Assembly: GCA_021527695.1 (NCBI GenBank)
Contig: JAKFAO010000012.1
Span: forward strand, 1 to 64,000
DNA from: Naematelia aurantialba
Taxonomy: Eukaryota > Basidiomycota > Tremellomycetes > Tremellales > Naemateliaceae
DNA length: 64,000 nt
Reading direction: 5' to 3'
In this document: positions 6,234 to 58,469 of the stretch, in pieces
Position numbering within the stretch: position 1 is the first letter of the stretch
Layout: each line of letters starts with the position of its first letter
Program-made: the position numbers and the translations under genes
The notes under the pieces: model-generated
Database searches by the model: none
What the model was told of the DNA's origin: nothing
Seen by the model: the letters and a program-made list of their open reading frames with translations, nothing else

Positions 6234-6251
6234 GCCCACGTGCCTGCCCAC
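6234..6251. promoter_or_regulatory. Paired GCCCAC motifs upstream of regulator A
   Basis: GCCCAC occurs at 6234-6239 and again at 6246-6251 in the 700-bp stretch between dioxygenase I (stop 6388) and regulator A (start 5685). I see no gene in that stretch. The same hexamer is clustered in the other module promoters. A role in (auto)regulation of gene A is inferred. Confidence 0.4.
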
Positions 6252-6387
6252 TTCGCTTGGCGATATTGTATCGAGGCATCCCATTCCCATGACAAACAAA
6301 CCGAATCCATAGATAGGTCACCATACAACGCATAAATGAATATTACGGGAGACCTAAACCCGGCCACTACCGGTGTCAAGGCAGCAG

Positions 6388-7699
6388 CTACCTCACGTAC
6401 GTAGCATTGAGCCGCATGCCGATGTATTCTCCAGAAGTGACGGGAGGGTACTTCTTCGGTCTGGTCTCGGACCAGGTACCGGGAAGCACGTCGATGACTT
6501 TGTCGGGGTTGGCCGAGCAGAACTGTCCATATCTCAGCCTGATGAGGGAGACAAGGCACTCACGTATGGGATGGAGAATCTCTCCCGGGTCATGTTCTCG
6601 TCATCATCGCGCTTGGGAGGCTCTCTCACGCGGTGCAGAGTAGATCTGAGCTCGTCGTTTGACCAGCGCATCAGGAAATCGCCAATGTTAAATATGATAG
6701 CTCCAGGCACAGGCGGCGCAGGGAGGAAGGTCCCCGGGCGGTGCTGATGCACTTCGTCATAAAGGTCTTTCGCATCCGATTAAAAGACAAACTCACTGGG
6801 TCCTCTACTTCTAAGCCTCCCACGTCGTCTTGGAAGAGAAATGTGCAAGTGCCAAAGTCCTTCGAGATGTCAGCGAGGCGTCGTGGCCACAATGAACAGT
6901 ATCGCTCACGGTGTGCGCTGCGATCCTTCCCATTTCCCCAGACTCGAAGACCTTACGCGGGCCCGATGGATCTACGCCGCGATAGTTGGCGTTATAGCGC
7001 GTCCAAGACAGCACACAGCACTCACAGTGCAAGAGACGCAACTGGTTGTCAAACTCGTTGTGGTATTCCTCAAAAAACCGGTCCGGCACGCCTGGCATCC
7101 CGACCGCCAGAGCCTTGAGGACTTTGACCTCGAGCAGGCGACAAGTCTCCATGAACCCTACACAGGTGCTTCTCATTCCTGGAAGGTATTTCTCCTCGAG
7201 CCAGATGTTGGCGCATCGCTTTGATTTTTCATTGCCTGGTACGTGATGCATTAGCAGCGTCGGGAGGTGAGCTTGAAACCCTACTTACCCATATCGAAAC
7301 TCTCCTTGAAATCGGGCCGGGTCTTTCGGAGCTTGTCCAGCTCGTCGTTGTCAAAGACCATCTGAGAGACCTGCTCCACCCCGATGCCGGAATAGCCACT
7401 ATACAATACACAAGTCAGCCACCTGGTGTTTTGCATGTACGAGCGCACCGATGCTTATCCCCTTCAGGCGGGTGAGGGGCAGTCATCTTGACTTGGTACG
7501 GCAATTCGAAGAACCTTTTGCTCATCGCAAAGACAGCGTCAATCTCGGACTGGTTGATTCCATGGTTGATGATGTAGAGGAAGCCAACGTCGCGACAAGC
7601 GGCGTAGAATCGCTCGCCGATCTCCTTGGCAGCGGGGCCGGTGCCGTCCCCAAAGTCGCCGAAGTCGATAAAGGGGATAGCGGAATCTGCACTTCCCAT
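6388..7699 (-). CDS. 2-oxoglutarate/Fe(II) dioxygenase I, thymine-7-hydroxylase-like
   Basis: Start ATG at 7699 (MGSADSAIPFID), stop at 6388, with about five introns. The N-terminal DIOX_N domain shows IPFIDFGDF and GFLYIINHGI. After splicing (donor GTGAGC near 6910), the iron motif reads HTDFGTCTFLFQDD, giving the His and Asp ligands. The second His is in STLHRV after GDFLMRWSND, and the 2-oxoglutarate-binding RxS is RFS in TRERFSIPY. The tail (FCSANPDKVIDVLPGTW, then KKYPPVTSGEYIGMRL) resembles fungal thymine-7-hydroxylases. Those enzymes oxidise the thymine methyl group in pyrimidine salvage. The gene is divergent from an NCS1 permease, which supports a nucleobase substrate. The family also covers isopenicillin-N-synthase and plant-hormone oxidase relatives, so the exact substrate is uncertain. 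Confidence 0.8.
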
Positions 7700-7860
7700 G
7701 TTGCCGATGGTCACTTTCTTGGTTGCAGAGACGGCGGATACTATGAGGTGAGACGAGATGGTATGGTTCGGCTATCGTATACGCAAAGAGAGAGAGAGAG
7801 AGCTTCACTGGCGTCCCACAGTCGGCTCGGGTCGTTCGTTCTACGTTCGTTCTCCGAACC

Positions 7861-7911
7861 GCCCACTTGGTGGGCTTGGTGGGCAGGGAACCTGGGAACG
7901 GCCAGGTGGGC
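7861..7911. promoter_or_regulatory. Four GTGGGC/GCCCAC motifs in the dioxygenase I - NCS1 I divergent promoter
   Basis: The divergent promoter (7700-8031) holds GCCCAC at 7861-7866 and GTGGGC at 7870-7875, 7879-7884 and 7906-7911, four hits within 51 bases. The first two form an inverted repeat around TTG. A (GA)n run lies nearby at about 7786-7801. The position would let one regulator act on both the permease and the dioxygenase. Function is inferred. Confidence 0.5.
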
Positions 7912-8031: not shown

Positions 8032-10525
8032 ATGACATCTTCTACTGTAAGGGAGATTTCTTCTGACACCAGTCCTTCGGGATGGTCGCGCTTCCTCAAG
8101 AAGCTCGAGGTGCCCACCGACGAGGATGCTACTTATCAAGTCAGCTTCTCACGTGCTTCCGACGAAGGTTTGCTGACTCTCTGAGCAGACGGACCGTTGG
8201 ACCAACCGAGATCTCATTCCTATGCCGAAGGAGAGACGAACTTATGCCATCTGGTCATACGTGATTTATTGGATCATCTCGGGAATGTGCATCAGCGCAT
8301 ACACACTTGGTTCCACTCTGCTTGCGTACGGTCTCAACTGCCAGCAGGCACTTGCCACCATTGCAGTGGGATCCCTCTGCGTGTCACCTCTTGTGAGTCT
8401 TGGGACGATTGATATGTGCTGATCTCGTAGGTCATGGCTTGCGGGTGGATGGGCGAAGTAAGTGATAGCCTACCATCGGCTTCTCCATTGCTCATGTGTT
8501 TCAGCGCCACCACATCGGCTTCACTGTTGCATCACGCTTCTCATGGGGCATGTATGGGTCATACTTTCCTGTGATCATTCGTACTTTCACCGTAAGCTGC
8601 GTTCTCGGGTAGTCACCACAGTCGATGCTCATCGGTTATGAAGACAATCTTCTGGGACGGACTCCAGGGTAAGTCAATAAATACTGCGCAGGGCGCGGCC
8701 TAATGCCTGTGACGTAGCGTACTGGGGTGGCCAGGCTATGGCAGTGACACTCGGTACGATCTTCACTGGCCTCTACAAGATGGACAGCACACTTGCCGGC
8801 GGTGTTCTCCAGACCAAGGACCTAATTGGAATGTTGTAAGCAGGGCCCCGGACAATCCTTCACTAGCACTTACTCGTTGCAGGGTCTACTACGTATTCTT
8901 CGTGACTATCATGATAGTGCCCCCTGAGAAGCTTCAAAAGCCTTTTATCGCGTCGTCCTGCATGTTTGTTTCCACGTAAGCCAAGTCTGATCACAATCCG
9001 TGATAGGCTCTGACCCTTACCTTCCCTAACCAGCCTTATCGGCCTCCTCGTTTGGGGCTGCTCCAACAACGGTGGCGGGGCTGGCCCTCTTTGGAACACC
9101 GCAGGGACGCCCCTCCACGGCTCTACAGGCTGGTGAGCACTCTTTCAATTACAAGCGTTAAGCATGCTAACCGTACTGCAAGGGCGATGATGTTTGGCAT
9201 CGCTGCCGTGCTCGGCTCGTGGGGAGGTGGTACTCTGTGAGTGCTTCCTGCACTCTTAGTTTCATGTTACTAATAAACGTCCGCCTCGCAGTGGTCAAAG
9301 CGACTGGACTCGTTATGCGGACCGGCCCAAGGCGCCGATTATCGCTCAAACCATCGCTGCCCCTCTTGGCATTTTCATTTGCGGAACGGTCGGTATCATC
9401 GTGACCAGCTGCGGGAACGGAGTCCTGGGTGTGTGGATTCAATCACCGATGGCGCCACACTGACGTCTTGTTGCAGGCGAGACAATCTGGGAGCCATTTG
9501 AACTTCTCTATGCTCTCCAGGCACACTACAACAACTCGCCCCGTGCCCGGGCGGGCGTCTTCTTCGCGGGCGCAGGCTGTGTTGGCGCGCAGCTTGGAAT
9601 CAGGTGAGCTCAAGAAAGCCGTGAACACATGCTAATGGTGAATCAGCATCGTTCTCAACTCTGTATCTGCTGGTATGGATCTGGCCGGACTATGCCCCCG
9701 CTACCTCAACATCCGACGTGGTGCCTATAGTGAGTAAAGAGCGCACAATAGGGCCCGTGTCGGACCGCTAACTCAAAGCCATAGTCCTTGCAGCTGCCGG
9801 TTTGGCTGTCAATCCCTGGCAGTACTTGAGCAACGCTAGTACTTTCTTGACCGTCATGTAGGTTCGCGTCTATTGACAAATGTGACCATGCTCATACGTC
9901 CTCTATCAGCTCGGGTTTCGGCGTCTTCCTCGCCCCATTTACGGGGGTTATGCTGGCCGACTACCTCGTCGTCCGAAAGCAGACCTTGGTTCTCGAAGAT
10001 CTGTACAAGGGAGACCGTTCTTCGATTTACTGGTTCAATGCGGGTTTCAATTGGAGAGCGTTCGTGGCTTGGACTCCTGGCGTGGCTGTCCTCATGCCCG
10101 GCTTTATCATGAGTGTCAAAGACTCTAACGCCTGGAACGCGTGGGTATGTGGATTCTTTGTCGTCTTCACACAAAGCGTTTTCTAACGGTTGGGCCGACT
10201 ACAGGTGAAGCTGTTCCATCTTGACTTTTACATCGGTACGTGCCCTCTGTTGTACAGTACCCATTGCTGTTACCCATTGCTGATTTGTACCAATCTTCTA
10301 GGCGTTGGCATTTCATTCCTACTCATGGTAGTTATCAACAAGATCTCGCCGCCCGCCGGTCTTGGACTCGGCACCAAATACCACGACGACAGTGTTTCCT
10401 TTGGCTCTACAGACACAGGCGTTGTCGGCTTTGAGCGCGAGGAGACTGAAAAGGAAATCCCTGGCGAAGCCGAAGGCTATCTTCCGCACCACGGCTCAGT
10501 GGTGCTCACAGATTCGAAGGTATAG
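8032..10525 (+). CDS. NCS1 nucleobase/ureide:cation symporter I
   Basis: Start ATG at 8032 (MTSSTVREISSD), stop at 10525, with about ten short introns; the first is roughly 8141-8190. After the cytosolic N-terminus comes the NCS1 signature RWTNRDLIPMPKERRTYAIW, then the first membrane helices (YVIYWIISGMCISAYTLGS). Later exons encode the remaining helices of the usual twelve and an acidic cytosolic tail (DTGVVGFEREETEKE). The family moves uracil, allantoin, hydantoins, cytosine, purines or vitamin B6-type compounds with H+ or Na+ across the plasma membrane. The N-terminal pattern is closest to the fungal Fur (allantoin/uracil) branch. Divergence from a thymine-hydroxylase-like dioxygenase supports a pyrimidine-like substrate, but specificity cannot be read from the sequence. 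Confidence 0.85.
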
Positions 10526-11035
10526 ATGTTAAGAGCGTGGAGGTGGACTGTCGCCGTGGTCGGGGTTGTTCGATCATGGTCTAAAGGTAGTAACGTTGTG
10601 TGTTTCCGCCCCGTAGCATCGGCGCATCATGTCTTCTTGTGCCCGGTAGCTCAAGTTGTCGATAGGCATGCTTTATTTATTGACGTTGTTGGTTTTGTCA
10701 AACACCATGCCGTCCTTCAGCAGCAGCGTTGTATTAATTTGAAGGGACCCAATAGACCCGTAAGACCCGGACGAGACCACCGGCGTGTTCTGCAAGGATG
10801 ACATACCCGAATCTAGCGTCAAAGTAGACTAGGAGGCTTTTCCCTTGTGATGACCCGGGAAAGTCTCAGTTGATTCTCAAGCCGAATCTGTCCCGTTCAA
10901 TGGTCAAACATAAGGTGGCGGAATCATAGACACCACTGAGGGGAGATCTGGCTGTCAAGGTCACTATGCATGGGTACGAAGCCGCTGTCACTGTTTCGGA
11001 CAGGCATCGTGCCGGAGGCATCCTTTGAGATCCAT
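10526..11035. other. Convergent intergenic region, no gene seen
   Basis: About 510 bases separate the stop of NCS1 I and the stop of aldo-keto reductase I, which face each other. I see no coding pattern, RNA gene or notable repeat. It presumably holds the two 3' untranslated regions and polyadenylation signals. Confidence 0.6.
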
Positions 11036-12659
11036 TCATTCCTCACCCTCAAACTCCTTCAGACCCTCGTAGTATTTGTACCCTCTGCAACCAGGGGACA
11101 TTAGCAATGATGGATGCCATGCTGGACTCGATACTTACATAAGCTCAGAAAAGTCACAGTAGCGAGCACGCGCCGTGGTGCTGCCGTATACGCTGCTAAC
11201 ATCCTCGGGCGTCAAGGTGATGTATCTGGCATTCTCAAGGATGCGCTTTGAAGTGACGCTCTTTGGAATGACCGAGACACCCTCCTGTTGTTCATGCATC
11301 CATCAGTGGCAAGCCAAGCTGCAAAAAGCCGGGACCTACTGCAATCTGAAGAGAGATCAGGATTTGAGCCGGAGAGGCGTCATACTTCTTGGCGAGCTGA
11401 ACCACTGCAGCGTCCTGCATGACAGGCGGCAGCTTGTCCCCTTTGCTGTAGGACGGATTGGTATTGCCTAAAGGAGAGTAGGCCGAGACGTGCATGCCAA
11501 TCTTGGTTCTGGTAGTGAAACATCAAGAGGATACCTCGTGACCCACCTCCTTGTGCCACGCAACGAACTTGTGCTGAGGGAGATAAGGATGTCTCTCAAG
11601 CTTGGTGAAGAAATGAGTCACAGATAGCTTCTTGATGTAACGAACTGACCTGGTGCACTGCTGGCTTGACCTTGCAGTTGTCGAGTAGCTTCTCAGTTTC
11701 GGTCTTGCTAAAGTCTACGCACTAATGGGTATTTGCTACGGTCTACGATGAGAAAATGCGCACTGCTGATGCCAATGTTTCGGCACTTTCCAGTATCGAG
11801 CAGTTCTAGAATTGCATGGTCAGTCAGCTTTTGAGAAGACACCAACCGACTTCTCAACTTACTCTCCATCGCTGCCCAGGTATCGGTGTAAGGCACATCG
11901 ATAACCTTGATGCCCTCCACCTCGGGGTCCATTGCACAAGGGTAGTGCATCAGGTAAAGGTCGACATAGTCCAGCTGAAGGTCTGCAAGGGATTTTTCAA
12001 ATGCTAAAAGTACGTCTTTAGGCCGATGCGCGGCTTCGAGGTTACATTAGGACAGATCGTTTGACTCCATTCCAGCGGCTTACTGTTCCAAAGCTGTTTA
12101 ATGGGTGCTGTCAGACCATTGAGTCTGTCGACTTTGTGGTTACTAACCTTTGCAGTAACCCAGATATCCTTTCTTGGAATGGCGGACTCCTTGATACCTT
12201 GGCCTTTACAGGGTGAACAACATCAATCGGTGGAGGGTAAGAGCGTAGACTGTCACTCACCAACTTCTTTTTCGTTGCCGTAGATACTATATTACGACAG
12301 TCAGCACATACGTACAGCGCTGGTCGATCTCGTACCTCGCCGTGTCAATTAAGCGCTGATACAGGAAATCAGCCGGGGCGTGGAGGGGCGGAGGGGACGA
12401 GACTCACATAACCATTCTGAAGAGCAAACTTGACAGCCTGCAACAACCAAGAGCGCTTTGTTAGTTTGCTAACAGCTAAGAGAAAAACAAGGATGTAGCT
12501 GTAAACACGGCGTTCGACGTCAGCTCAGTCGGTCGTGATGTAAAGAATATCATACCTCGCCTCTTTTACTTCGCCTGGAGCCGACTGCCATGTCCCCAGA
12601 CCAAAACCGGGGAGGTTATCGCCAGATGGCAACTTGAACGCTGGGAATTCAGAAGCCAT
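11036..12659 (-). CDS. Aldo-keto reductase I
   Basis: Start ATG at 12659 (MASEFPAFKLPSGDNLPGFG), stop at 11036, with about nine small introns. The strand shows the AKR layout: GLGTW near the N-terminus, then the catalytic Asp and Tyr in RLIDTASIYGNEKEVG (across two introns), the Lys in KDIWVTAK and the His in the DLYLMHYP segment. Cofactor-side motifs come later (SAYSPLGNTNP, then a SVIPKS-like stretch). It would reduce aldehydes or ketones with NAD(P)H in the cytosol, within a fold shared with fungal xylose reductase and glycerol dehydrogenase relatives. Its upstream region carries five GTGGGC motifs, as in the NCS1 modules, so it is probably co-regulated with them. The physiological substrate is unknown. 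Confidence 0.85.
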
Positions 12660-12743
12660 GGTTGGAGTACGTTTCATGTGAAGGATGTCTTTGCCATATG
12701 TTTTGTTGGAATTTGCAAAGTATAGCATCGGTAAGCGCCAGCC

Positions 12744-13058
12744 GTGGGCGGGGTCTATCGATCAATCCCGTGCGAGGTCCGGCCCAAACCCAAGAGTATG
12801 GGTGAAGAGAATCCGAGAGTGGGCAAGCCTGGGAACTCCCCAGTTCATCCAATCATAGTATGAGCAGTCTAATTTCGTTCGTTGCAACAACAGGTTCGCT
12901 ATCACTACTGTTTGGAAGGCTATCTACTAATCAAGTGACACCGATCCGCACAAGTGGGCGGCCATTCCTCCACGGATATAAGCGGCGTATGGCCAATAGG
13001 CAAACGGGGCTTGCGCCGCAACGTCAGCTCAGGATGTGGGCTATCGACTCAGGTGGGC
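12744..13058. promoter_or_regulatory. Five GTGGGC motifs upstream of aldo-keto reductase I
   Basis: GTGGGC occurs at 12744-12749, 12819-12824, 12954-12959, 13036-13041 and 13053-13058, all in the same orientation and all within 400 bp of the reductase ATG. No coding region was recognised here. By simple chance about 0.15 copies would be expected in 315 bp of even-composition sequence, counting both strands. The GC content of this region raises that only somewhat. Confidence 0.5.
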
Positions 13059-25014: not shown

Positions 25015-26656
25015 AGGAAGAACTCACCCTTGCCCAGAAGTTGACGCCGCGGAATCGCATGTCGTGTTGGCTGGAGTCACCAGGTGGGCCTGTTGGAAGC
25101 TGAGCAGAAGAGTACAAGTGGCGTCCTGGGTGGTGGTGAGTAAGAGAAGTCTCAACAGAAACTGAATGGTTGGGGATAGAGGACTCGGAGGATCCTCCCC
25201 AGAGAGGTTTGTCGACCAAAGCGGTGACAGAGCGGGGGCATGTGCATCCGCCACCATGGTCATCCTCTCTTCCTTCACGGCCAGTGTTGACATTGTCCGT
25301 GGTCAGATGGCATTGGCTGTGGCCGGCAAGGCATGGATGTAGTCTTCTCTGGGTGATAAGATATCTGATTGTTGTTGTCCCGGCCCTTGGCCCCGAGGGT
25401 GAAGAACCGACACCCCAGTCATGTCGGACTAGGCACCCTTCATGGGTGGAAAGCAACGCCGCTTAGAGTTCACCAAGGAAGCCGGCAACGTGGGCCACGC
25501 CTTGACCCCCCCCCCGCCGATGACGAATGTTATGTCAGCCTTTGTTAACATGGGATTCCAGACGTGCGATGACCGTCAACATAGGACGCAAGAAGCGCTT
25601 TTGGGAGAGACTGCACATATTAACGTTATCATCGAGATCCGTGTTTGCTCGCGGCGTACCCCCTCCATGTTCTCGCCCCTCTCATCGCCCGCTCTTGCGA
25701 ACAAGCTCTTGGATGCTTTGATGAGGTAATAAGTAATGAAACAAACAAACAACAGGGTACGTATACATTCAATGCATCCGAGGTGCTTGTGTTCGCCATG
25801 TCGCAATAGATGGTAACTGAAGAGTTCTCACTCGTCAGGGTCCTCCGAGAGTAGACTATGCGCGCCAGAGGAGACTGCTCGTCTGGTGGGGGATTTCACG
25901 ACACGCGACAGACTGGAATCATTATTGGGTTAAAAGGCCTGACCTGTTGAGAGAGATCACAAGCGCTGAGCGAGGAGCATTACCGAGCGAGCCGTGTTTC
26001 TTTGCGAAACATCACAAGGTGCCGAGCGCACTACGAAGCAGCGGTGGGGGTATCCAAGCAGTGTGTGAGCAGTCCACATGCATGCACTGGGACCCTCGTG
26101 AGTGGCATCTCTGTGGAGGTCGGTAAATGGCCGTTGGTTGGCCAGGACATGGGCGTAGACGCACGACGGGCGGGAGTCTAGCCCCATACTGATATTGCGC
26201 TCAACACCAATCAATCAACTGGTTCCCCCGCTGTAGAGGATAGGGCTGGGACTAGAGGTCTTGCCTGGACGAATGCGGTGAACTGCCGCCGAACATGCGG
26301 AGACCAACCGGTACAGTCAACATCCGTGGCAGCCACTACACTGAACGCATTGATAGATTTCTCATTGCCAAGGGTCCCACTGTATACTTCTATGGACAAG
26401 CTTACACTAGTATGCAGTACTCTTTCTATGCATGCAGGAGGGTTTGTCCCAGTCAGCCGGCTTCGAGGCCCTTGGAGTCTCTCAAGGTAGCCCTAGGACA
26501 TCTTGGCCGGCAGCAGTAAAGCAGAAACGCGCGGCTTGCGGCAAACTGCCGTGACAAAATCTCGAGACCTCGTATGCCTCCATTCAATATATCTGTCTCT
26601 CCCATATCTCTTCTCTATCCCGCAAACAGTTTCTGTCACCGTGCACAGACTCCCTC
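25015..26656. other. Long intergenic region upstream of the surface-protein gene
   Basis: About 1.6 kb with no recognisable gene lies between the divergent starts of the DUF3494 protein and the alpha/beta hydrolase. It holds both promoters. Two lone GTGGGC hexamers occur (25084 and about 25493) without clustering, and a run of ten C lies at 25506-25515. Several short open frames show no domain and were not called. Long upstream regions are common for regulated surface-protein genes. Confidence 0.5.
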
Positions 26657-37152: not shown

Positions 37153-37332
37153 GCCCACATTCCGAGCCAGCTATCCCACACGTACGCTATCTTTCGACCG
37201 AGTGGTCCAGCAATGCATTCTGTGTAGGAGCACTCTGAGCAATGTTGGTGCCGACACCTCCACAATTGGTGCACATAGATAGAGACATCGGCCCCCTTGA
37301 ACAAACCCACATTAACCCACATTAACCCACAT
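37153..37332. promoter_or_regulatory. GCCCAC site and AACCCACATT triplication in the dioxygenase II - NCS1 II promoter
   Basis: The 465-bp divergent promoter (37020-37484) has GCCCAC at 37153-37158 and a head-to-tail array of the 10-mer AACCCACATT at 37304-37332 (almost three copies). The core CCCACA is the complement of TGTGGG, close to the GTGGGC motif of the other modules. Regular 10-bp spacing puts each core on the same face of the helix. Binding by the C2H2 factors is inferred. Confidence 0.5.
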
Positions 37333-40094: not shown

Positions 40095-40115
40095 GCCCAC
40101 CTCGCCTCCCCACAT
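40095..40115. promoter_or_regulatory. GCCCAC and CCCCACATT motifs upstream of regulator B
   Basis: The 203-bp gap between NCS1 II and regulator B contains GCCCAC at 40095-40100, and a few bases on, CCCCACATT, which matches the triplicated promoter motif at 37304-37332. The gap is short, so these sites probably belong to the promoter of regulator B and suggest autoregulation. Inferred. Confidence 0.4.
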
Positions 40116-42610: not shown

Positions 42611-42648
42611 CGAATGCTTAAGCATGCGATTGGATCGCCTTTGCCTTC

Positions 42649-42684
42649 GCCCACATTGCCCACCTCACTCCACATCTCGCCCAC
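42649..42684. promoter_or_regulatory. Three GCCCAC motifs upstream of the esterase-D-like gene
   Basis: GCCCAC occurs at 42649-42654, 42658-42663 and 42679-42684, three copies in 36 bases within the 170-bp gap between regulator B and the next ATG. Two are followed by AT, giving CGCCCACAT. Density is far above chance. Binding by regulator B is inferred. Confidence 0.5.
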
Positions 42685-42780: not shown

Positions 42781-44012
42781 ATGCTCTTCAAAGTCAGTAC
42801 AGACAAGGCATTTGAGGGTGACGCGAGCATCTACACGTTTCGATCCGAGGCGCTGGGTCAGACATGGTCAACATTCGGCGTGTTCATCCCCCCAAATGCG
42901 TGCGTGTCGAAGCCTGTCCCAGTTGTGTGGTACTTCCCAGGCATCATGGTATCGTACCAGGCAGGCTTCATAAGGGGAGGCCTATATGAGCAAGCTGCAA
43001 AGAGCGGATTGGGATTGATTTTCCCCGACAGTTCGCCGAGGGGAACTGGTCTGGCGGAGGAGAAAGTCGATTATCGTTTGGGACCTGGAGCAGCGTACAA
43101 CGCAGACGCGACAGCGGGTGAGCTACATCTGAATTGCTAGCACTAGGATTATCCCTGTACTAAAGCCGATAACCAGAACCGTGGTGTAGGTATTACAAGA
43201 TGTTCACGGTGAGAAGACATCACACCATCTTGGCAGATGAGACGGTTGACTGTGGTAGCATATCACCGAGGAGCTCCCTCGAGAGTTGAGTGAGGAGGGC
43301 CTGCCTCTCGATTTTACCAGGCAAAGCTGCATTGGCCACTCTGGTGTCAGTGCTTTGGAATGACGCATCATTGCAGGAGATAACAGAGTAGGGAGGTCAT
43401 TCTGCAATGCAGCTGCACCTGCTCAAGCCAGAGACCTATTTCTCCGCATCCGTGAGTCTGTCAGGGACCGGATCGCGTATATTCAGACTGACCACGCTGA
43501 CATTGGCAGGGAATTGCGCCATTCTGCGATCTTATGGGGAGCGAGATTGGCGCATATGTGATTCCAAGGATGTTCAAAGGCGGCTTCGACGAATTCAGGC
43601 CGCTGAATGTTCCCAACCTCATCAAGGAGGTGCAAGGAAGGAAGATCAATATTCTCGTCACATCAGTAAGCCGAAGGTGGCGGATGAAGCTGCGTGGAGT
43701 TGACAAGGATTCTCCAGGGCACCAACGATGTTGCGGCAAAGCCCGTAAGGCAGCCCCGACGACACCGCGTCTAAGCTGACGTCCCCACCTCGCACAGGGA
43801 GGCATGATGATTGATAGTCTTGAACGTGCGGTTGCTGAAGCGGGAATCCCATCGAGTGACTTCGTCCTGGAATGGCACGAAGGATATACGTGAGACCTCT
43901 ACTTCAGAAGAGTGTCAAGCCCTGACAACGCTTAAGGCATTCATACCATTACAACGCCACCATTGCCTCCCGACATCTCTCCTTCCATGCGGATATTTTG
44001 AAGAAGCTGTGA
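42781..44012 (+). CDS. Esterase D / S-formylglutathione-hydrolase-like serine hydrolase
   Basis: Start ATG at 42781 (MLFKVSTDKAFEGDASIYTF), stop TGA at 44012, with about six introns. It matches the esterase D family along its length: TWSTFGVFIPP, then PVVWYFPGIMVSYQAGFIR, FPDSSPRGTGLAEE, GPGAAYNADATAEPW and YYKMFT. ITEELPRELSE follows, then GHSGGGHSAMQLHLLKPETY with the nucleophile Ser, FCDLMGSEIGAY, and a final HSYHYNATIASRHLSFHAD with the catalytic His. The GHSxGGH motif forms only if the donor near 43346 and the acceptor near 43390 are used. Family members hydrolyse S-formylglutathione or act as broad carboxylesterases. The C-G-L-T-C-type motif of true formylglutathione hydrolases is replaced here (YFPGIMVSY), so a different ester or thioester substrate is likely. 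Confidence 0.8.
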
Positions 44013-45051
44013 GCTTCGAGCATTTTCTCTTGGGCCCATTGACCTGTGCCTCTCAGCCCTCAAGGGAAGGCAATTGAGGCGAAGCGAGACAGCTTGGGAG
44101 AGCGTCCTCCATGGGAGACGAGAAACATCAAGAAGACTGTAGCACCAGCTAAGGCGGGAAGCGAAATTGCGGAATGGATTGATGTGAGGAGCACTCGACC
44201 CGGTTTCCTTACGGCTTCCTGGCTGATGGTGACTAGGCCCTCAACGAGACACACACGATACTCATATTCACTCATAGCGGCATCGAGAGTAACGAACAAA
44301 AGGCTTTATGTCGGCAGGCAGAGCACTATGTGGCCACAAGGCCACTTCCAGACGATCAGATCTTAGTGATTGAGCAAGTACTGATACTTCCAGGACCGTC
44401 AGGTTGATTGACCTCGTCTTAGCGTTAACGGTCATCCTCATCAACGCCAGCTCGAGGAATACTTCGCCAAGACGCGGGGCACACGTTACTGGCCCGCTTG
44501 CTTTACCCACCACATGTACTATGGAGGTCGGTGCAGTGGTTTCAGCGTTGACACGAACTGACGGTCAACCAAGGCATAAACAACCTCCTATATACAACGT
44601 GTGGCACGGATATGAGACTCGGACAGCCCGGAGTATAACTCGGAAGACAGAGAAGCGATACATTCTCGCAATAGCTCATAGTCTTCCTGGATCAGGCAAC
44701 GCGATGTAGACATGCAGCTATATCTCGAATCGATTCCCATGTCAACTGTCCAATTTGGGGGAATGATTGCACCAACTGTTCCCCTTCTGAACCAGACCGT
44801 AAGATGGGTATAGAGCATGCAGTAGTTCGTCATCGTGAGATCACCACCCCATATGTGGGGAGGAGGTAGGTGGGCATGTGGGTAAGCTCGGACAAGCGCG
44901 ACCCTGTTGATATGCGAGTCCTCCTGTGTTCCCCCTCGACATCTTTCGTTGCGCTGGGCTCGTATATCATTCCGCGCTGTACTCGTATACTGAGGTCCCT
45001 TATCTCGCCGCCAATCTACCTGTACCATCACACGATCCTCCAGTTCTGAAC
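44013..45051. promoter_or_regulatory. Upstream region of the HyuA-DUF917 gene, with GTGGGC site
   Basis: About 1 kb with no recognisable gene. Close to its right end is GTAGGTGGGCATGTGGG, containing GTGGGC at 44870-44875, with GTGGGG just upstream (about 44855) and GTGGGT just downstream. This is about 180 bp from the HyuA ATG. The rest contains short open frames without domains. Confidence 0.4.
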
Positions 45052-48000
45052 ATGACACTTGCTGTCCCTCGTTTACTTCGCATTGGTGTGGATTGCGGAG
45101 GTACCAATACCGATGCAGTGATCCTTGACCTTACTCCTGGAGCGCAGAAGGTCGTCATAGACGCGACCAAGTCTGCCACCACTCCCGATGTCACCCATGG
45201 CATCCAAGCAGCCGTCTCGACCGTACTGGACCGGAGCGTGCCTTACTCATCTCGAGGTCAGATCCAGGCCGTGTCCATTGGGACGACGCACTTTGTCAAC
45301 GCCTTGATTCAACGGTCTGCAGATCAGCTCGACAGAGTCGCGGTGGTCAGGCTCTGTGGGCCATTCTCAAGGATGACCCGACCTTTTGCAGCTTTCCCAT
45401 ACGAATTGCGCGAGATCATGGAGGGACCCCACTTTTTTGTGGAGGGAGGCTTGCAGATCGACGGCAGGGAGCTCTCCAAAGTGAGCCGTGTTAGTATTCA
45501 CCCGCTGACATACAGGTCGACGAGAAGGAGATTGAGGCTGTCTGCGAAAAAATCAAATCCGAGGCAAGTCGGGCTCAAGAAGTCGCTGACTTGTAGGGTA
45601 TTCGCACCGTGGCGATAACAGGCGTCTATGCCCCCATTGATTTCACCCTCAAACAAGAGGAGCAGGTTGAGGCTGTCATCAAGCGCTGTATCCCCGGGGT
45701 CTATACGTCTTGCTCAAAAGATGTTGCCAACATGGGACTCCTCGAGAGAGAAAATGCCACGATTCTCAATTGCTCGCTCTTGCCCTTTGCAGCTCTCACC
45801 GTTCAGGGTTTCCGGACCGCCGTCAAGGCGCTCGGTCTCACCTGTCCAGTATTCGTCACCAGCAACGACGGTACGTTGCTGAGCCTTGAACAAGCCGCAG
45901 TACTCCCCATACGTACATTCAGCTCGGGCCCCACAAATTCGATGAGGGGAGCTAGTTTCTTGTCACGGCTGGCAGAACCAGACGGCAAGAGGGAAACGGC
46001 GTTGGTGATCGATATCGGGGGAACCACCGTGGGTTGTCCTGTTGAAGGAGACTAACCAGTTCAAGACCGAGGTTGGGGTACTCCTGTAAGCATGCTCAGG
46101 TTGGTGAGTGAAGAATCTAACATGGTCAGACCTTCAGGCTTTCCTCGACAAGCAGCGAGCCAGCATGATCTGTGCGGCGTCCGTCTCAACTTCGCAATGC
46201 CTCACGTCACAAGGTAAGGATCTGCTCTGGCCCAAGCTGACCTTCAGCATCGGTCTCGGGGGCGGTTCACATGTGCGCCAAGACGCCGCCTCAGGCAAGG
46301 TCACCGTTGGGCCCGACTCGGTCGGCTATCGGTTGACGTCCGAGGCTCTGGTCTTTGGCGGATCGGTTCTTACCGCGACCGATATCGCCGTCGCGGCTGG
46401 ATCAGATATCGGTGATGCATCCAAGGTGCAAGGACTCTCATCAGACCTCGTCAATGGAGCCACGGCCAGAATGAAAGTCATGCTCGAATTGACGATAGAC
46501 TCGATGAAGACGTCGACCCAGGTTTGTCAATGTGACAGGGTCACGCTTATCAATAGGACATCCCGGTCTACCTTGCCGGTGGCGGAGCCATGTTGTGTCC
46601 CGACGACTTGCACGGTGTCAGCAAGGTGCATCGGTTTCCACATTACGAATGTGCCAATGCTGTTGGAGCCGCCATCGCCCATGTGGCTGGAACTGTGGAC
46701 ACAGTGGAGGAGATGGGCTCCAGATCTGTCAGCCACGTAAAGGGAGAAATCGAGGCGCGGGCTGTTGCGCGTGCTGTTGCGGCAGGTGCGAAACCCGAGA
46801 CGGTCAAGATTATCGAGTCCGAGGTGCTGCCAGTAGCATACACGGCAGGAAAGTGTCGTTTCTTCGTCAAGGCGGCTGGCGAGTGGAGCGGAACGGGCCA
46901 GTCATCGCTCGATGTCGATGGGGCGGATCGGTCTTCCAGGATGCTGCCAAAGTCTCAATCAGCCAAATCGAAGCTATACCCTGACAGATGTGACACGATT
47001 TGGCGGGTGGATGATATTCTGACATATCGACCAAACGTCATCCGCGGCGAGTGGACTCTCAGTGAGCTCGATCTCGAGTTCATCTGCATTGGGACCTACA
47101 TTTTGGGCTGCGGCGGCGGGGGAGACCCATGGAATACGTATATCGGCATCAGGGAGATGGTCCGAGCTGGAGCCAGAATACGTGTGGTCGATCTCAGTTC
47201 GTTAGCGCCGAAGGCTCTCATCGGATGGGGTGGCTCTATGGGCAGCCCAGAGGTAGGAAGTGAAAGACTCTTGGGGCACGAGTACATCGAGTCGACGAAG
47301 GAGCTTTTGGGGTTCCTCAAAGTAAGTGAGCCAGTGGCCAACGGCTTATAGGCAGATCGATAAGTTGGATGCTTTGCTCGCTCTAGAGATTGGCGGATCT
47401 AACGGGATGATCAACGTGAGCACAATTGCAGGCAGTGCTGAGCCGCAGATGGTTCCTGGAGCTAGTACACTATTAGATCTACCCATCGTTGATGGTGACT
47501 TCATGGTAAGTGAGACGATAAGGTTCTGTGAAATTCTGACCCGCTTCTTAGGGAAGAGCATATCCAGTTGGTATGTGACTCTCAGGCCCTGGGTTGGCAA
47601 CTACGTTAAGCGTTAGGCTGGCAAGTGACTCCGAACGTTTTTGACACTTCGACCCGAGGCGAAAACATCATCCCCTCCTGTATCGCGAGCGGTGACGGCA
47701 ACGTAATGGTCCGTAAAGTCATCATCCTTGCAGGGAGATCTTAACACCTAGTAGTTCATGACCAAAGCGAAGCATTACACGTCAATCGACGCCTCCCTTA
47801 GAGCAGCCTGCGTGGAGAGTGAGTCGCTCCCAGCGATTTTTGCTGATCCATCAGTGGGCACACGAGTCGGTCATTCGCGCCGGCCTCATACTGTCGAGTT
47901 TTGCACGACTGCCATGATCCGAAACACGCTCTCTCTCAGTTGGCGTATCGGGCGGGCAGTCATGCTCGCCCAGAAACAAGGAAATATTGCAAATGCTGGG

Positions 48001-48630
48001 GGTATCATAATCGATGCTCTTGGTGGGCCAAGCTCGGGCCGCGTCCTGTTCGCTGGCAAGATTATCGACGTAAACCGTCGTGTCTTCAAGGGGCATTCAG
48101 TAGGAGAAGTCGTGATCGCAGCTTTGGCATTGGAAGAGGAATCAGAATCGGATCAGCTCGAGAGGTTCTCAGGGGTCATCACCAGTGAGTGCTCAAATGA
48201 TGACTGACATGTCGCTGACGGGGAACAGTCCCTTTCAAGAATGAGAACCTCTATGTGAAGCACGACGTAGATGGCACAAGCAAGGTGGGGGTGGCGCAAA
48301 CCATCGTCGGAGCGCGCTGACCCATGTGCAGATTCTGGCCACAGTTCCTGATCTCATCTCCGTACTTGACGCTGGCAATGGGCTTGCGCTTGGTACTCAG
48401 GACTACAAATACGGACTGCGCGTGATAGTGTTGGGGGTGACAGCTGCGCCTCAATGGACTAGTACTAAGAGGGGTCTGGAGATCGGTGATCTAAGGGCTT
48501 TCGGGTAGGCTGGCTTTCATCAAATACGAGCTGTCGTTGACCAGTTAGCATTGACGACATCCCGTACCAGGGGCTGGGCAAGTACTCGGAGCCTAGAAGT
48601 GTGATCGAAGAGTTCAACGTGGTAGTCTAG
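45052..48630 (+). CDS. Hydantoinase A/oxoprolinase - DUF917 fusion protein (copy 1)
   Basis: Start ATG at 45052 (MTLAVPRLLRIGVDCGGTNT), stop TAG at 48630, with many introns. The N-terminal half is a HyuA/oxoprolinase-type ATPase: GVDCGGTNTDAVILDLTPG (phosphate 1), IGTTHFVNALIQR, AAFPYELRE, then ISTSND-like VTSNDGTLLSLEQA, SSGPTNSMRGASFL, IDIGGTT, and SIGLGGGSHV followed by GPDSVGYRL. The C-terminal half is a DUF917 domain: LEFICIGTYILGCGGGGDPW, then REMVRAGARIRVVD, GWGGSMGSPEV, and the ending YKYGLRVIVLGVTAAPQWTS. HyuA enzymes open hydantoin or oxoproline rings with ATP. DUF917 includes an S-methyl-thiohydantoin desulfurase. The fusion would therefore handle a cyclic amide or ureide. The second copy at 54258-57818 matches throughout. 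It follows the esterase and regulator B in the same direction. Confidence 0.85.
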
Positions 48631-51679: not shown

Positions 51680-54089
51680 TCATCGATCGCAGGAGGCGAG
51701 CAGCCCGAGCAAGATTTCCACAGGCTGCTCTACTGCAACATCATCAAACGTGAATCATGGCTCGAAATCACTACCTGCTTACGAATGGGCCATGGCAGGC
51801 TCTTCAAAAAGTGCACGGCGTACGCCAACAGGCCGATGATGTTGTTCTGGATGTCACCAGTCGGGTAGTGACCAGGAGTCTTTTGATGCGGTTCGTACTG
51901 TGCGAGATACTCGAGGGCGGATCTTCGGGCAAGTCTTGGTTCTATCACTACTTCGGCTGGCCCGGGTCCGGTCATTGAGACGCAGAGTCTATCGAGGGGT
52001 CCGTAAGAAGGCTTGCCCAAGGTGATAGTTCCTATGTGCCAAATTGCTAGAGTGGCAAGATACAGCGCCCACCCCGTAAACGGATCGTGCGAGTGCTCCT
52101 CCGTGGAGGATTGGAGCACCAGCTGAGGCGTCGGGTCAGCCCATGAAGATTGCGTGATAGGCAGTATGTACTGACAGTGTAAATTTGGACAGCATGCCAG
52201 AGGGCAAAGGTCCCAGCTGGCGACGGGGACAACTCGGCCAGAACATTGAGCGCGTGCTCTTTCTGCCACGGCTTCACAACGATGCTGCCCACCCTATCTT
52301 CACCAGACGCCATGCGAAGTACCTCGACGTTGATATTTGGATTGTGGACGAGGCTCAGGTGATATTCAATCTCACAATTACCCCTATCATTGGTGGAGGG
52401 CAGGAAAGACGAGAGAAAGGCGTGATGCCAACTCCAAAGTACGACCCCGGCAAGCTCCATTGACGGAAAATTTGGGTTCTCGCCAGGCGGGGGAAGCCGG
52501 AGTGGCGTAGGTACGTTGGAAGCCACGGCTCCAGCTAACAGTATCGAAGCATAGAACACGGAGGTGGGACCTGGAGACATGGTATCATTGCTGAGGATGT
52601 GCTCGTAAGCTGCCTCGGATGGCGTCTCCCTGATTGTCGTGCTTGCAGATCCTATCCACTCCTCCTCCGTGCGAGCATTCCAAATGTCATCCTTGCAGGG
52701 AAGACAAAATCGCATTTGACGAAACGGCGCACGAATCGCTTCTCCGAACGCGACACTCATTTGTGAATCGATGATGAGTGCAAAGGACGCCAGGCGTTTT
52801 CGTTCCTCGTAGTCGAGCCAATCTCTCCAAGCCAGGGATGTGGAAGAGGGTAAACAAGATTGCCATACTCCAGCCAACTTGAAGATTTCAAGGCACATTG
52901 CATGATTGACTGCGTGATCAGCCAAATCTCTTCGGATTCATATGGCCGACTGAGGACGCGTACCTAGAGCATGATAGTGCTCCTCCTTTGCCGCCCAGAA
53001 AGCGCCGAAATAATCGAGTAGAACAGCCGCTTGTAACAAGCGCAGCGGCACGTCGGGGACGGCTTTCAAGAGGATCTGGAGGAGCTTAGCTCATTCGCGA
53101 CATTGCGGTACTTGAAAGGGGCGGCTTACAGTGTTAAATTCTGACCGAGCAGACGGATAGAGGGTGTGACTAGCGAATTGATATGTCTCTTTTTGACTGC
53201 TATAGGCAGATCCTACCAGGACAACGGCAAGAAGCAGCCAATGTTCGTCCTGGTCTTCGAGACGCCTCAGACTTGGACGATGCAGAATCGGCCGTGTTGG
53301 ATGGAATTTTAGATAATAGAGCTCCAGACAAGTTTCCAGGTACTCGGCAGACCTGAATGACAGGGCAGAGTCCTGTAGCAAGATCAGCCACGACTGGAGT
53401 GTCCCTCCGACTCACGGCGGGCTGGAGGTTGGATACAAGCGTCATCATAAATTGTACAAAATTTTCCGTTATGATATCGGGTTGAAAGACGGTCGGTTGG
53501 GCGCTTCTCACAGGCTTGATGGTGATGTTGGATTCCTTGGCATAGAAGCCGTCTTCTTCAGGGAGCGGTGTAACAATCATGTAGAGCGAATTGACATCAT
53601 CCCCAGGCTCCTTATCGATCATGCTGCTCCCAGAAACGGGGTCAACAGCCTCGGAGGGGTGAGAAGACAACGGATGGGGAATAGGAGACGAAGAGGGTGA
53701 CCGTGGTGAGTATTCCAAGATCTGAGGACGACGAGCAGCGTGGTCAGCTCGACCAGATAAGGTTGGTGGTGACTCACCCTGTCCTCGGCGTCACTCACAT
53801 GCTTCCTCTTCAGGCTGAACGCGGTACCAGTTTCGTGGGCCTCCCTTTGGTGGCGCATGAGAACATCGCGCCGATAATATCGCCTCTGGCATTTGGGGCA
53901 TGAGAACGGCTTCTCTCCCAGATGTATGGCTTCGTGCCGCTGATTTTCCGCCTTTAGCACCTGTGCCAACGACGCGGACCTTCGACTCACGTCTCTGTAG
54001 TCACGTCGAGGAAATGCCTTGCCGCACCAAGCGGTCCGGCATGCAAATACATTGCGCTGCGATGGCTGCGCCGGATTCTGAAAGGCCAT
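51680..54089 (-). CDS. C2H2 zinc-finger transcription factor C with fungal_trans domain
   Basis: Start ATG at 54089 (MAFQNPAQPSQRNVFA), stop TGA at 51680 after a last intron whose acceptor is near 51733, with about six introns in all. Finger 1 is CRTAWCGKAFPRRDYRD, then an intron, then RHEAIH. Finger 2 is CPKCQRRYYRRDVLMRH. The fungal_trans region shows YYLKFHPTRPILHRPSL, LLLAVVLVGSAYS, WRDWLDYEERKRLASFALI, GVVLWSWHHAFLSSF and DPFTGWALYLATLAIW. The tail IEPRLARRSALEYLAQYEPH, IIGLLAYAVHFL and EQPVEILLGLLASC matches regulator B almost step for step. It is a nuclear regulator that lies 168 bp downstream of HyuA-DUF917 copy 2 on the same strand. It was probably duplicated together with that gene. 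Confidence 0.85.
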
Positions 54090-54257: not shown

Positions 54258-57200
54258 CTAGGAATACTCCTCTATCACACTGCGCGGCTTCACGTACTTT
54301 CCCAGAGGCTCATATGGGATATCGTACCCGAACGCCGGGAGCGCGCCCATCTCCAGCCCCCGAGGCGTGTCTGTCCATTGTGGTGCTGCCGTCACTCCGA
54401 GCACAAGCACGCGCAGGCCGTATTTGTAGTCTGGCATACGTCAGCCAGGAAACGCGGTAGGGCGAAGCACCCACCTTGAGTACCGAGTGCAGTGCCATTC
54501 TGACTATCAAGGACAGCAATGAGATCGGGGACACCAGCGACGATCTGTGATTGGTCAGACAAGGTGGAACCTGCAAAGAGTCCGCGATCTCACCTTGGAC
54601 TCTCCGTTGACAGTGTGTTCGCAAAACAGATTCTCGTTCTTGAAGGGGACTACAAAGCGCACACCATCAACACAGTACTTGCCAAGATGCGCTAGATCGG
54701 GACTTACTGGTCAGGCGCCCTGCGAAATGCTGCCTTTTTAAGGCCGGGTCCTCGTCCTCCTCTTCCTCCTCGTCCGCTGCCAAAGCTTGAATGATGAGCT
54801 CTCCGACTGTGTGACCCTTGTACATGGTCCTGTTGACAGTCACGATTTTGCCCTGGAAGAGGACTTTGGCTGTTGAAGGACCACCGAGTGCATTGACGAG
54901 AATCGCACCAATGTTGCCAATCTGAGCCTGCTTGTTCGCGAGGGCGACGGCTCGGCCGAGACGCCATGCCTGCGAGACCGTGTTCTTGACCATCATGACC
55001 TCACACTGGGCTTTGCTGAGCGGACGGCAGGCGGCACCGGCGTGTGTTCCCATCTCTACGCAGCTGGCCCGCAGGATAGCGTCCGTATCGCGATAGTGCT
55101 TCGCCTTTGTCATGAACTGTAGTCATGCCGTCAGAGAGGATCTTGCTTGCGCAAATTCTTTAAGAAACGACCTAAACAGACTTACCACTACATTGCCGTC
55201 TCCACTGCTCATGGCAGAGGGCAGGATCAGTTCCCCTTTGTTCCCTGTGTCATATACGTTTGGTGTCGTTTGCCACCCAGTAGGATAGGCCCGGCCCATG
55301 AAGTCACCATCGACAACGGGTAGGTTGAAGTATGTCGTGGAACCGGCAATCAAGTTGATCATCCCATTGCCGCCGCCGATCTCAAGTGCGGCGAGCGCAG
55401 TGACTTTTTCGAGCTTCATGAAGGAGATGAGCTCTCGGATGGCCTCGTTGTACCTATGGGACTATCAGCTCATTGTCGTCGCTGAATCCGACAGACCTAC
55501 TCCTCGCCCATCAGCCGCTCGGAAGAGACTTCTGGAGATCCTATGCCACCACCCCAAACGATTTCTGCATCGGTGGCCACAGAGCTCAGATCCACCACCT
55601 TGCACGTCTCACCCCTTCGCACCATCTCTCTCAAAGCCAGAAAGTCATGTTGGGGGCTACCGCCGCCTCCACAACCAAGGATGTAGCAGCCAGTTGCGAT
55701 CCATTCGAGGTCGATGTCCGACAGCGTCCATTCGCCGTTTGTCACAGCAGGTTTGTAGGCCAACATGTCTGATGCTTGAAGGACAGTGTCCACTTTCGGA
55801 AGCACCTGGTTGAGGTTGACGGGTTTGATGGGTGAAGACGATTGTGCAGATGAAGCCTTATCATTGGAAAGGAGTTCCGATGCGTCGTGTGCCGAGTTGA
55901 TGACGAGACTGCCAGCCCCTGTCCACTCACCCGCTGCCTTTACATAGAACCGGCACCTCCCGGTCGTGTCTGAGCACAGTGTCAACTACAGCTCGACGCC
56001 CAGAACGAGGAAGAGTGAAGTCACTTACAGGCGATAGGTATGGCCTCGCTCTCCACGACCTTGCACGTCTCTGGATTGGCTCCGTTGGCAATGGCTTTTT
56101 CGATGGTCCGCTTCTCAACCATCTTCTGAACCTCCAGGATTGAGAAGTTTGATGTGTTTTCGAAAGTGTCAATTACGGCCGATACTTCGGCACAAGCTGC
56201 ACCGACCGCATTTGCTGCATCGTAGAATGGGAACCGATGGACCTGACTCACACCCCTTAGGGAGTCTGGAACCAAGATGGCTCCACCGCCGACGAGATAG
56301 ACGGGGACATCCTGGGTATTTGTCTTCATAGTGTCGATAGCGAGCTCGATCATGACCTTCATTCGCGCCTCTGCGGCTTCCAGATCGGCCCTATCGAGAT
56401 TGCTCACGAGCGAAGGATCGCCAACACCCTTCGCTTTTCCCAGCGCAACCGCGACATCTGTGGCGGTGAACACGTTGCCACCGAACGAGAGGCATTGGTG
56501 GATTTCGTAGCCGACAGAATCTGGGCCGATTGTAGTCTTGCCCGTCTGGTCCTTGCGGACACGAGATCCGCCGCCCAGGCCAAAGCTATGAACGTGCGGC
56601 ATGGAGAAATTTAGAGGCACACCACAGAGCTCATGATGGGCTGCTGCTTGGCGAGGGAACCCGGTTGGTCTAGGGAGGACGTCAGCCTGCGAGTGTGATA
56701 TGATCTTCAACCACCATGGCTCACAAAAGAACACCGATCTCAGTCTAGATTGTGTTGGTCAGCTTTGACGGACCAGCAGACCGCTGTACGTACAGTGGTT
56801 CCTCCCACATCGACCACGAGAGCAGTCTCTTTCCTTGAGCCGCTGTTTGCCAGGCGGGCGAGAAAGTTGGCGCCTCTCATCGAGTTGGTAGGACCGCTCG
56901 AGAATGTCTTGATGGGAAACTTTGCTGCCTGCTCACACGTCATGAGGGTTCCATCGTTGGATGTCAGAAAGAGCGGGCAGTCCAGCTGCAATGCACGAGC
57001 AGAGTCCTCGAACCCGGCAACGGTAAGGGTCGCAAATGCGAGGAGGGCTGCGTTGAGGATAGTGGCATTTTCTCGTTCCAAGAGGCCTGATATAGGTGAG
57101 TTTCGTCATCCTTAGAGGACCAGCCCAGATCGTGATCACAGAGAGTGTGTACTTACCAAGGTTGGCGACTTCCTTGCTGATGGTGACCTTGACGTCCGGC

Positions 57201-57818
57201 AGCTCCCTGTTGATGATTGCGCGCACCGTCTCCTCCTGCTTGATGGTCGCGTCAATCGGGCTGTACACTGAGGAGACAGCGATTGTCTTGATCCCCTGCC
57301 GCTTGATTTCCGCGCAGATACCTCGGATCTCGGCAACGTCTACCTGGCTGATCTCCTTTCCGTCCACCTGGAGTCCTCCCTCGGCAAAGAAGACGGGCCC
57401 CTCGAGGACAGCCCGCAGCTCATATGGGAACGCAGCAAACGGTGGAGTGAGTCTGCTAAACGGCCCACACAGACGGATAACGGCGACACGCTCGAGCTTG
57501 GCGGCATTCCGTTCGATAAGAGAGTTGACGAATGATGTGGTACCGATGGCGACCGCTTGCAAGCGATTCTTGTCTATTTGCGCTTTCTCGAGACATCCCT
57601 GCACCGCCATCTGAATACCAAGTGTGACATCTGCAGTAGTAGGGGCTTTGAATGACGAAAGTACTGGCGTTGGTGTCCCCGGTGTAAGATCCAGAATCGC
57701 GGCATCCCTACGGGTCGACCAACGTGAGTTTTGCTCTCTAGCTGACCATCTTGCACACGACGTACGTGTTGGTTCCTCCGACATCCACCCCGATGCGCAA
57801 GGTTTTGGCAATGGTCAT
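54258..57818 (-). CDS. Hydantoinase A/oxoprolinase - DUF917 fusion protein (copy 2)
   Basis: Start ATG at 57818 (MTIAKTLRIGVDVGGTNT); exon 1 ends there and a GTACGT intron follows. Stop TAG at 54258. After splicing the phosphate-1 loop continues DAAILDLTPGTPTP. Then come AIGTTSFVNSLIERN, AAFPYELRAVLEG, LTSNDGTLMTCEQA, SSGPTNSMRGANFL and VDVGGTT. SFGLGGGSRVRKD precedes GPDSVGYEI, and next VPVYLVGGGAILVP. The DUF917 half shows LEWIATGCYILGCGGGG, GGIGSPEV, LEIGGGNGMINL and MTKAKHYRDTDA. The end is YKYGLRVLVLGVTAAPQW, then YDIPYEPLGKY and SVIEEYS. It would open or process a cyclic amide/ureide ring using ATP in the cytosol. It is divergent from NCS1 III, which parallels bacterial hydantoin operons that pair a permease with hydantoinase. 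Confidence 0.85.
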
Positions 57819-57986
57819 CTTGTCACCTCGGCTACTGTGGTAGGGGATGACTCGAAGTCTTGTTCAGACGTTTATGATATCAACAGCAGTATTTCATGCT
57901 CCGTAGTATAGCCGACACGAGCCTTATCTTGTCCCTTCCGAGCGACTCGCTGCTTTGGGTCCCCAGGCGCCCATGGGTAGTGGGTA

Positions 57987-58469
57987 GCCCACCGCAGCAA
58001 GAATGTGGGCCGATACCGCCTGAGAATCGGCGGACGACAGCCGCCGCTTGAAGCGAAGAAGCAAAAGTTTTTGGTGATACTGCTGTCGGTCAAGACGAGA
58101 TCTCTCGGAGCGGACCCGCTGCAAGCCCACGAGGCCAGACGCCATGCAGGAGCAGTCTAGATATGCGCCATTCGGTGGTATGACCGAACAGGAAATGTGG
58201 TCACGATATTAGGAATGCTACGAGCATCTGCTACCGCACAATCGCACTGCCGGGGTCTTTCACTGGCCCTTCCAGGGGGGGTACACCCATACCCATACCC
58301 AGCTCACTGATGGTTCCCCCATTGGTCCTCCCACAACGGGCTTGTCAGAGTTGCCCAATGCACTTGTTGATTGGTTGCCAGCACGTCTGCTTTACCTTGG
58401 CGTTGGATCATTCCCTCCCAGATCTAGTGCCTCGCCCGCCGCAGTCAGCCCACGGTGGGCATGGTGGGC
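57987..58469. promoter_or_regulatory. Five GTGGGC/GCCCAC motifs in the HyuA copy 2 - NCS1 III divergent promoter
   Basis: The 838-bp divergent promoter (57819-58656) contains GCCCAC at 57987-57992 and 58448-58453, and GTGGGC at 58005-58010, 58455-58460 and 58464-58469. They form two groups, one near each gene: about 170-190 bp from the HyuA ATG and about 190-210 bp from the NCS1 ATG. The second group repeats the GCCCAC...GTGGGC...GTGGGC order seen in the module I promoter at 7861-7884. Function is inferred. Confidence 0.55.

Follow-up and report, generated by a model that had tools for sequence, protein, structure and literature searches.

The first 64,000 nucleotides of contig C4 of the Naematelia aurantialba assembly (JAKFAO010000012.1; hereafter the window, 0.3% of a genome of 20,997,016 bp in 15 contigs) carry a group of genes for NCS1 permeases, thymine-dioxygenase-like enzymes, hydantoinase fusions and three zinc-finger regulators, and the hexamer GTGGGC recurs in groups upstream of these genes. 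This raises the question whether the hexamer is a shared regulatory site and, if so, which genes it serves and which protein reads it. We find that GTGGG[C>T], with C preferred to T at the last base, is a real and specific cis element that marks one regulon. We further consider it probable that this regulon is pathway-specific, that its sites are read by the regulators of the cluster, RegA, RegB and RegC, and that it has a target in trans on contig C1.

GTGGGC is concentrated and clustered in promoters of the window

The window contains 49 copies of GTGGGC. Dinucleotide shuffles of the window gave 38.8 ± 5.6 copies, with two of 100 reaching 49, and the genome rate (11,706 copies in 20,997,016 bp) predicts 35.7; the overall density is therefore barely above expectation. 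While the comparison with shuffled sequence showed a mildly high total, the signal in placement and clustering was strong. The eight core promoters (4,056 bp) hold 23 copies where 2.9 are expected, each promoter has at least one, and the word ranks first among 2,080 hexamers, whereas the nine other promoters of the window (4,923 bp) hold two. Since the core set had been chosen in the initial annotation partly through the presence of the motif, the tests over all 17 promoters (8,979 bp) are the fair ones. Here, 25 copies were found against 5.9, 6.4 and 7.9 expected under Markov models of order 1, 2 and 3, respectively; GTGGGC ranked second at order 1, after CCCCCC, and first at orders 2 and 3, with a p-value of 1e-6 at order 3. 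In the same unselected promoters it formed ten close pairs, while in 200 shuffles the highest number reached by any hexamer with at least three different letters was four. Same-strand pairs with a gap of 0–30 bp occur seven times in the window (0.76 expected) and 249 times genome-wide.

The sites also prefer a distance from the gene. Genes were modelled with our own dynamic programme based on codon usage and splice sites; as this is a simple gene finder, exon edges and start codons are approximate. Between 81 and 220 bp upstream of the core starts, with distances in divergent promoters counted from both sides, 21 copies of GTGGGY lie in 1,375 bp; at this distance upstream of the other genes of the window, 1,379 bp contain none.

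Consensus and array architecture

A base-by-base substitution scan detected no enriched variant (p below 0.05) at positions 1–5, which indicates that the sixth base alone varies. GTGGGT was found six times against 1.1 expected (p 0.001), GTGGGA four times against 1.3 (p 0.04) and GTGGGG five times against 2.1 (p 0.06). The wider consensus [AG][GT]GTGGGC[AG] proposed in the initial annotation held only as a weak tendency of the flanks: A at −2 in 14 of 23 sites, G or T at −1 in 15 of 23 and A or G after the C in 17 of 23.

All of the counts given there but one were reproduced on recounting. The divergent promoter between the dioxygenase gene DioxI (6388–7699, minus strand) and the NCS1-I permease gene (8032–10525, plus strand) contains four copies in 51 bp (7861–7911), arranged as GCCCAC-N3-GTGGGC-N3-GTGGGC followed by a fourth GTGGGC. 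Five copies in 315 bp (12744–13058, plus strand) lie 89–398 bp from the ATG of AKR-I (10673–12660, minus strand), named as an aldo-keto reductase gene in the initial annotation. Three copies in 36 bp (42649–42684, minus strand), with steps of 9 and 21 bp, lie 102–132 bp upstream of the ATG of EstD (42781–44561, plus strand), and two in 18 bp (6234–6251, minus strand) lie 554–566 bp upstream of that of RegA. For the promoter between HyuA2 (54258–57818, minus strand) and the NCS1-III permease gene (58657–60824, plus strand) the earlier count of five had to be corrected to six copies (57987, 58005, 58125, 58448, 58455 and 58464). One of its groups, at 57980–58010 on both strands, consists of GTGGGT (+), GTGGGC (−) and GTGGGC (+) and is located 167–192 bp upstream of the HyuA2 ATG. 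Another, GCCCAC-N1-GTGGGC-N3-GTGGGC at 58448–58469 on both strands, is located 193–209 bp upstream of the NCS1-III ATG.

Single copies of GTGGGC stand upstream of RegB, HyuA1 and the module II pair, each among variants. At RegB, GTGGGC (40095) is accompanied by GTGGGG (40095–40113, minus strand), and upstream of HyuA1 (45052–48630, plus strand) GTGGGC (44870) belongs to a plus-strand group with GTGGGG and GTGGGT (44855–44883). The near matches noted earlier in module II, between DioxII (35482–37019, minus strand; 3′ end of the model uncertain) and the NCS1-II permease gene (37485–39958, plus strand), proved to be a genuine group. On the DioxII side, GTGGGC (37153) is paired with GTGGGA (37153–37179, minus strand), and 160–180 bp upstream of the NCS1-II ATG three GTGGGT in AATGTGGGTT-like units follow each other at a 10-bp period (37305–37330, minus strand). 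In modules II and III, where the divergent promoters are wide, each gene thus has a group to itself.

Across these promoters, direct repeats are spaced at steps of 8–10 bp and inverted pairs lie close together. GTGGGC-N3-GTGGGC occurs ten times in the genome and three times in the window (0.03 expected), GTGGGY-N2-4-GTGGGY 121 times and six times (0.37 expected), and inverted GCCCAC-N0-30-GTGGGC 34 times and three times (0.10 expected); these spacing classes were chosen after the window had been viewed.

As stated in the initial annotation, the promoters of the amidase, ACS permease, GATA-like and AKR-II genes contain no GTGGGC, and neither does that of RegC, of which only about 168 bp are available. 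The gene labelled DUF3494 in that annotation (22338–25060) lies inside the cluster without motif groups and encodes a long threonine-rich tail; its two upstream copies (25084 and 25490) are 406 bp apart, close to the 400 bp first given. Separately, GATA-type words are raised in the promoters: AGATAA occurs six times in the core set (1.4 expected), and TAGATA 14 times in all 17 promoters (2.4 expected, order 1). This suggests nitrogen control on top.

Specificity across the genome

The arrays are not a general feature of NCS1 genes. Nine other NCS1 loci (a tenth, at C2:551171, was left out) have zero to two scattered copies of GTGGGC each and none has a group, which rules out a general NCS1 promoter element. 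GTGGGC-N2-GTGGGC is also found at C9:1783934–1783947, roughly 1 kb away on the 3′ side of another NCS1 gene; a small predicted gene follows after 635–643 bp, and we did not count the pair as a member of the set. Unrelated promoters were less dense so far as sampled: in four other stretches of 10 kb, the 20,637 bp predicted to be intergenic contained ten copies (six from a single stretch), compared to 25 in the 8,979 bp of window promoters. Furthermore, a control with the word reversed gave more pairs in the whole genome (383) than GTGGGC did (249), which shows that GTGGGC is not clustered in general.

From the direct arrays, of which 100 of the 121 in the genome were listed, 28 further stretches were inspected: 24 in list order, skipping simple-repeat arrays, and four chosen for resemblance to the arrays of the window or for nearness to an NCS1 gene. 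In 22 of the 24 list-order stretches the sites fall in predicted coding sequence or in an open reading frame (ORF) of at least 150 codons, and none of the 24 has them 81–220 bp ahead of a predicted start without a long ORF covering them. Within this set the sites lie 356–365 bp before a predicted start in L069, between genes in L077, and 71–80 bp before a predicted start, yet inside a 282-codon ORF, in L075. Three of the chosen stretches showed a pair 236–246 bp before an unidentified gene (L056), sites within a predicted gene (L057), and the C9 pair together with another pair in coding sequence (L054). Among the seven N3 repeats outside the window, none was seen before a gene of this pathway in the sequence inspected, which was least complete for L043 and L044.

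A formaldehyde dehydrogenase gene outside the window

The fourth chosen stretch (L055, at C1:175716) contains an array that lies outside the data from which the motif was defined. It reads GTGGGTAATGTGGGC on one strand with GTGGGC on the other and is located 117–152 bp upstream of a gene for S-(hydroxymethyl)glutathione dehydrogenase, a class III alcohol dehydrogenase (TIGR02818, 4.7e-108; 361.5 bits on the 241 residues covered, below the full-length cut-off). Both the direct and the inverted search found it, and among the matches listed overlapping direct and inverted pairs occur only here and in the DioxI/NCS1-I and NCS1-III promoters. We estimate the chance that any of about 115 outside matches falls in one given 140-bp promoter band at near 0.001, or near 0.01 if some ten genes would count as fitting. 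The regulon thus seems to reach beyond the window to this glutathione-dependent formaldehyde dehydrogenase. Upstream of the same gene, at L055 63–550, lies a gene that by eye resembles 3-hydroxyanthranilate dioxygenase.

Enzymes, transporters and a possible substrate

The physical linkage of the cluster genes and their family matches are established, and the genes may serve one pathway. DioxI and DioxII are 2-oxoglutarate-Fe(II) dioxygenases of one family, whose nearest solved relative is thymine dioxygenase (4e-70 and 1e-43, respectively), and the nearest solved relative of the NCS1-III permease is the hydantoin permease Mhp1. HyuA1 and HyuA2 are fusions of hydantoinase A with DUF917 (S-Me-THD). 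In this genome the DUF917 domain of the fusions was matched within the window only, while close relatives of the fusions occur in many Tremellomycetes and other fungi (best 120 of 3,408 matches). The only NCBIfam match of EstD at 1e-5 is TIGR02821, S-formylglutathione hydrolase, and the solved structures related to it are those of esterase D/S-formylglutathione hydrolases. EstD therefore resembles the enzyme that follows formaldehyde dehydrogenase.

Thymine 7-hydroxylase is able to remove N-methyl groups as formaldehyde; the literature listings consulted gave no source for such a demethylation. From these family assignments we infer that an N-methylated cyclic amide or pyrimidine-like compound may be imported, demethylated oxidatively and hydrolysed by the hydantoinase fusions, with removal of the formaldehyde. 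The target on C1 would fit this scheme because demethylation by the dioxygenases would release formaldehyde.

The cluster-encoded regulators as candidate binders

The cluster encodes three transcription factors with two N-terminal C2H2 fingers each: RegA (2600–5685, minus strand; RRDYLER, RPDVLRR), RegB (40162–42610, plus strand; RRDYRDR, RKDVLIR) and RegC (51680–54089, minus strand; RRDYRDR, RRDVLMR). RegA and RegC also carry a Fungal_trans domain, as does the near-identical public entry for RegB. That entry, an N. aurantialba protein matching our RegB model at 92%, bears the name carbohydrate esterase family 1 protein, which may have been transferred by mistake from the neighbouring EstD.

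At contact positions −1, 2, 3 and 6 the three proteins are identical, with R, D, Y, R in finger 1 and R, D, V, R in finger 2. A homologue in N. encephala has the same contact residues; this homologue and a hydantoinase of N. encephala are each listed on a contig of 127,682 bp, most likely one and the same. The C2H2 recognition code, as we understand it, predicts GTG followed by GNG (G-T-G-G-N-G) for these fingers. Positions 1–4 of GTGGGC fit this prediction and position 5 is open, making five of the six letters compatible. It is therefore likely that RegA, RegB and RegC bind the arrays. To our knowledge, little has been established in Tremellomycetes about the sites that C2H2 factors with two fingers recognise.

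Position of the cluster on the contig

The contig begins in a telomere repeat, CTAACCCC(C) at positions 1–104, which places the cluster in a subtelomeric region. In N. sinensis the telomere repeat is given as CCCCCTAA/TTAGGGGG (PMC13085929). At about 848–1834 we noticed, by eye, a retroelement-like ORF.

A probable pathway-specific regulon and its alternatives

Enrichment, spacing, position and cluster specificity together make one regulon over about 50 kb, as first suggested in the initial annotation, the best-supported reading. In the mechanism that we propose, GTGGG[C>T] would be the binding site of a pathway-specific activator of a subtelomeric catabolic cluster in Naematelia. The controlled genes would be those for the NCS1 importers, the thymine-dioxygenase-like 2-oxoglutarate enzymes, the hydantoinase/DUF917 hydrolases, EstD and AKR-I. 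The tight direct (8–10-bp period) and inverted arrays, mostly 100–210 bp upstream, may serve as upstream activating sequences, with several activator molecules bound side by side. The most likely binders are the paralogous two-finger factors RegA, RegB and RegC, and the sites in the promoters of RegA and RegB could provide feedback. In trans, the regulon would extend to the formaldehyde dehydrogenase gene on C1, whose product, together with EstD, could remove the formaldehyde released by the dioxygenases. We give about an even chance to the proposal that this cluster, with its three paralogous C2H2 regulators and single shared site, has captured a housekeeping formaldehyde dehydrogenase gene. 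Import, oxidative demethylation, ring hydrolysis and the removal of formaldehyde would then be induced jointly.

Several observations weigh against this reading. Five genes inside the span (RegC, AKR-II, GATA-like, amidase and ACS permease) lack GTGGGC sites, the RegA sites are far from the ATG, and GTGGGY also occurs in the more distant core bands (nine in 1,459 bp at 221–400 bp and nine in 1,806 bp at 401–900 bp). At position 6 the recognition code expects G where the motif has C or T. EstD scores 166.2 bits against a TIGR02821 cut-off of 281.7, with a gene model that is imperfect at one splice site. The formate dehydrogenase gene (L063) has no site 81–220 bp upstream; farther out it has only GTGGGA, some 320 bp away, and two copies of GTGGGT, near 734 and 759 bp. 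No array was found upstream of a second S-formylglutathione hydrolase-like gene (L062). With these two genes lacking an array, control of the whole formaldehyde pathway by the motif is unsupported.

Among the alternatives, the one that survives best is a functional, shared motif whose reader is a C2H2 protein from outside the cluster, for instance a general ADR1- or EGR-like factor, while RegA, RegB and RegC use other sites. The mismatch at position 6 speaks for such a reader, many C2H2 proteins bind G-rich sites, and the genome contains two further relatives of the RegB fingers (on C3 and C13). However, so far as their fingers were seen, these relatives depart from the three regulators in at least one contact residue. 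A general factor would moreover be expected to leave groups in many promoters, which is at odds with the list-order stretches and with the excess of the reversed control described above. We therefore regard an outside reader as unlikely.

It is very improbable that the arrays are shared merely because modules were duplicated and their promoters have not yet diverged. HyuA1 and HyuA2, DioxI and DioxII, the three NCS1 permeases and the three regulators are indeed paralogues, but their proteins are only 22–60% identical over the aligned pieces. The best three local alignments among the core promoters are the arrays themselves, the first alone reaching E 0.001, and no alignment was found outside them. 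Common descent of the promoters thus does not explain the shared sites, and AKR-I, EstD and the formaldehyde dehydrogenase gene come from other families, yet have sites. Chance or base composition, picked out by pattern-seeking, could draw on the modest rise in density (49 against 36–39) and on spacing classes chosen after the fact, but is scarcely credible given the maximum over hexamers in the unselected promoters, the order-3 Markov result with GTGGGC in first rank and an array outside the motif-defining data.

Comparison with known systems

If the proposed regulon is real, the substrates to consider for the cluster are reduced to those that release formaldehyde on oxidation, and a single binding assay would give three proteins a motif. 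For a basidiomycete pathway of which our literature searches found no description, the work also provides a defined cis code, a target in trans and candidate proteins to bind the sites; searches on the GTGGGC motif likewise found no papers. In the available text of the genome papers of N. aurantialba (PMC8777972) and N. sinensis (PMC13085929) the word hydantoin is absent.

The closest precedent is Mxr1 of Komagataella phaffii, an ADR1-type regulator of methanol utilisation whose targets include formaldehyde dehydrogenase (PMC8526985). It sets a precedent for a two-finger C2H2 factor that activates this gene, and like RegA, RegB and RegC it has an N-terminal C2H2 finger pair and repeated short sites in its target promoters. 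There are also differences: the Mxr1 site, CYCCNY, is not matched by GCCCAC, and Mxr1 also activates formate dehydrogenase, which here lacks an array. RegA and RegC further differ in carrying Fungal_trans, and the pathway is another.

The DNA-binding domain of ADR1 itself (PDB 2ADR) is a two-finger C2H2 module that the RegB fingers match at E 7.8e-10. Many other C2H2 structures outscore it. We take the second fingers of ADR1 and RegB to be similar and the contacts of the first fingers to differ. The site of EGR1/Zif268, presumably GCGTGGGCG, contains the letters GTGGGC, but EGR1/Zif268 has three fingers with other helices, compared to two fingers in each of the three regulators.

In organisation, the locus resembles the qa and prn clusters, fungal catabolic clusters that each serve one pathway and encode their own regulator: here, too, transporters, enzymes and regulators are linked under one cis element. 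Whereas qa and prn each depend on one Zn2Cys6 factor, the Naematelia cluster has three regulators, all of them C2H2 paralogues, and one apparent target that lies on a different contig.

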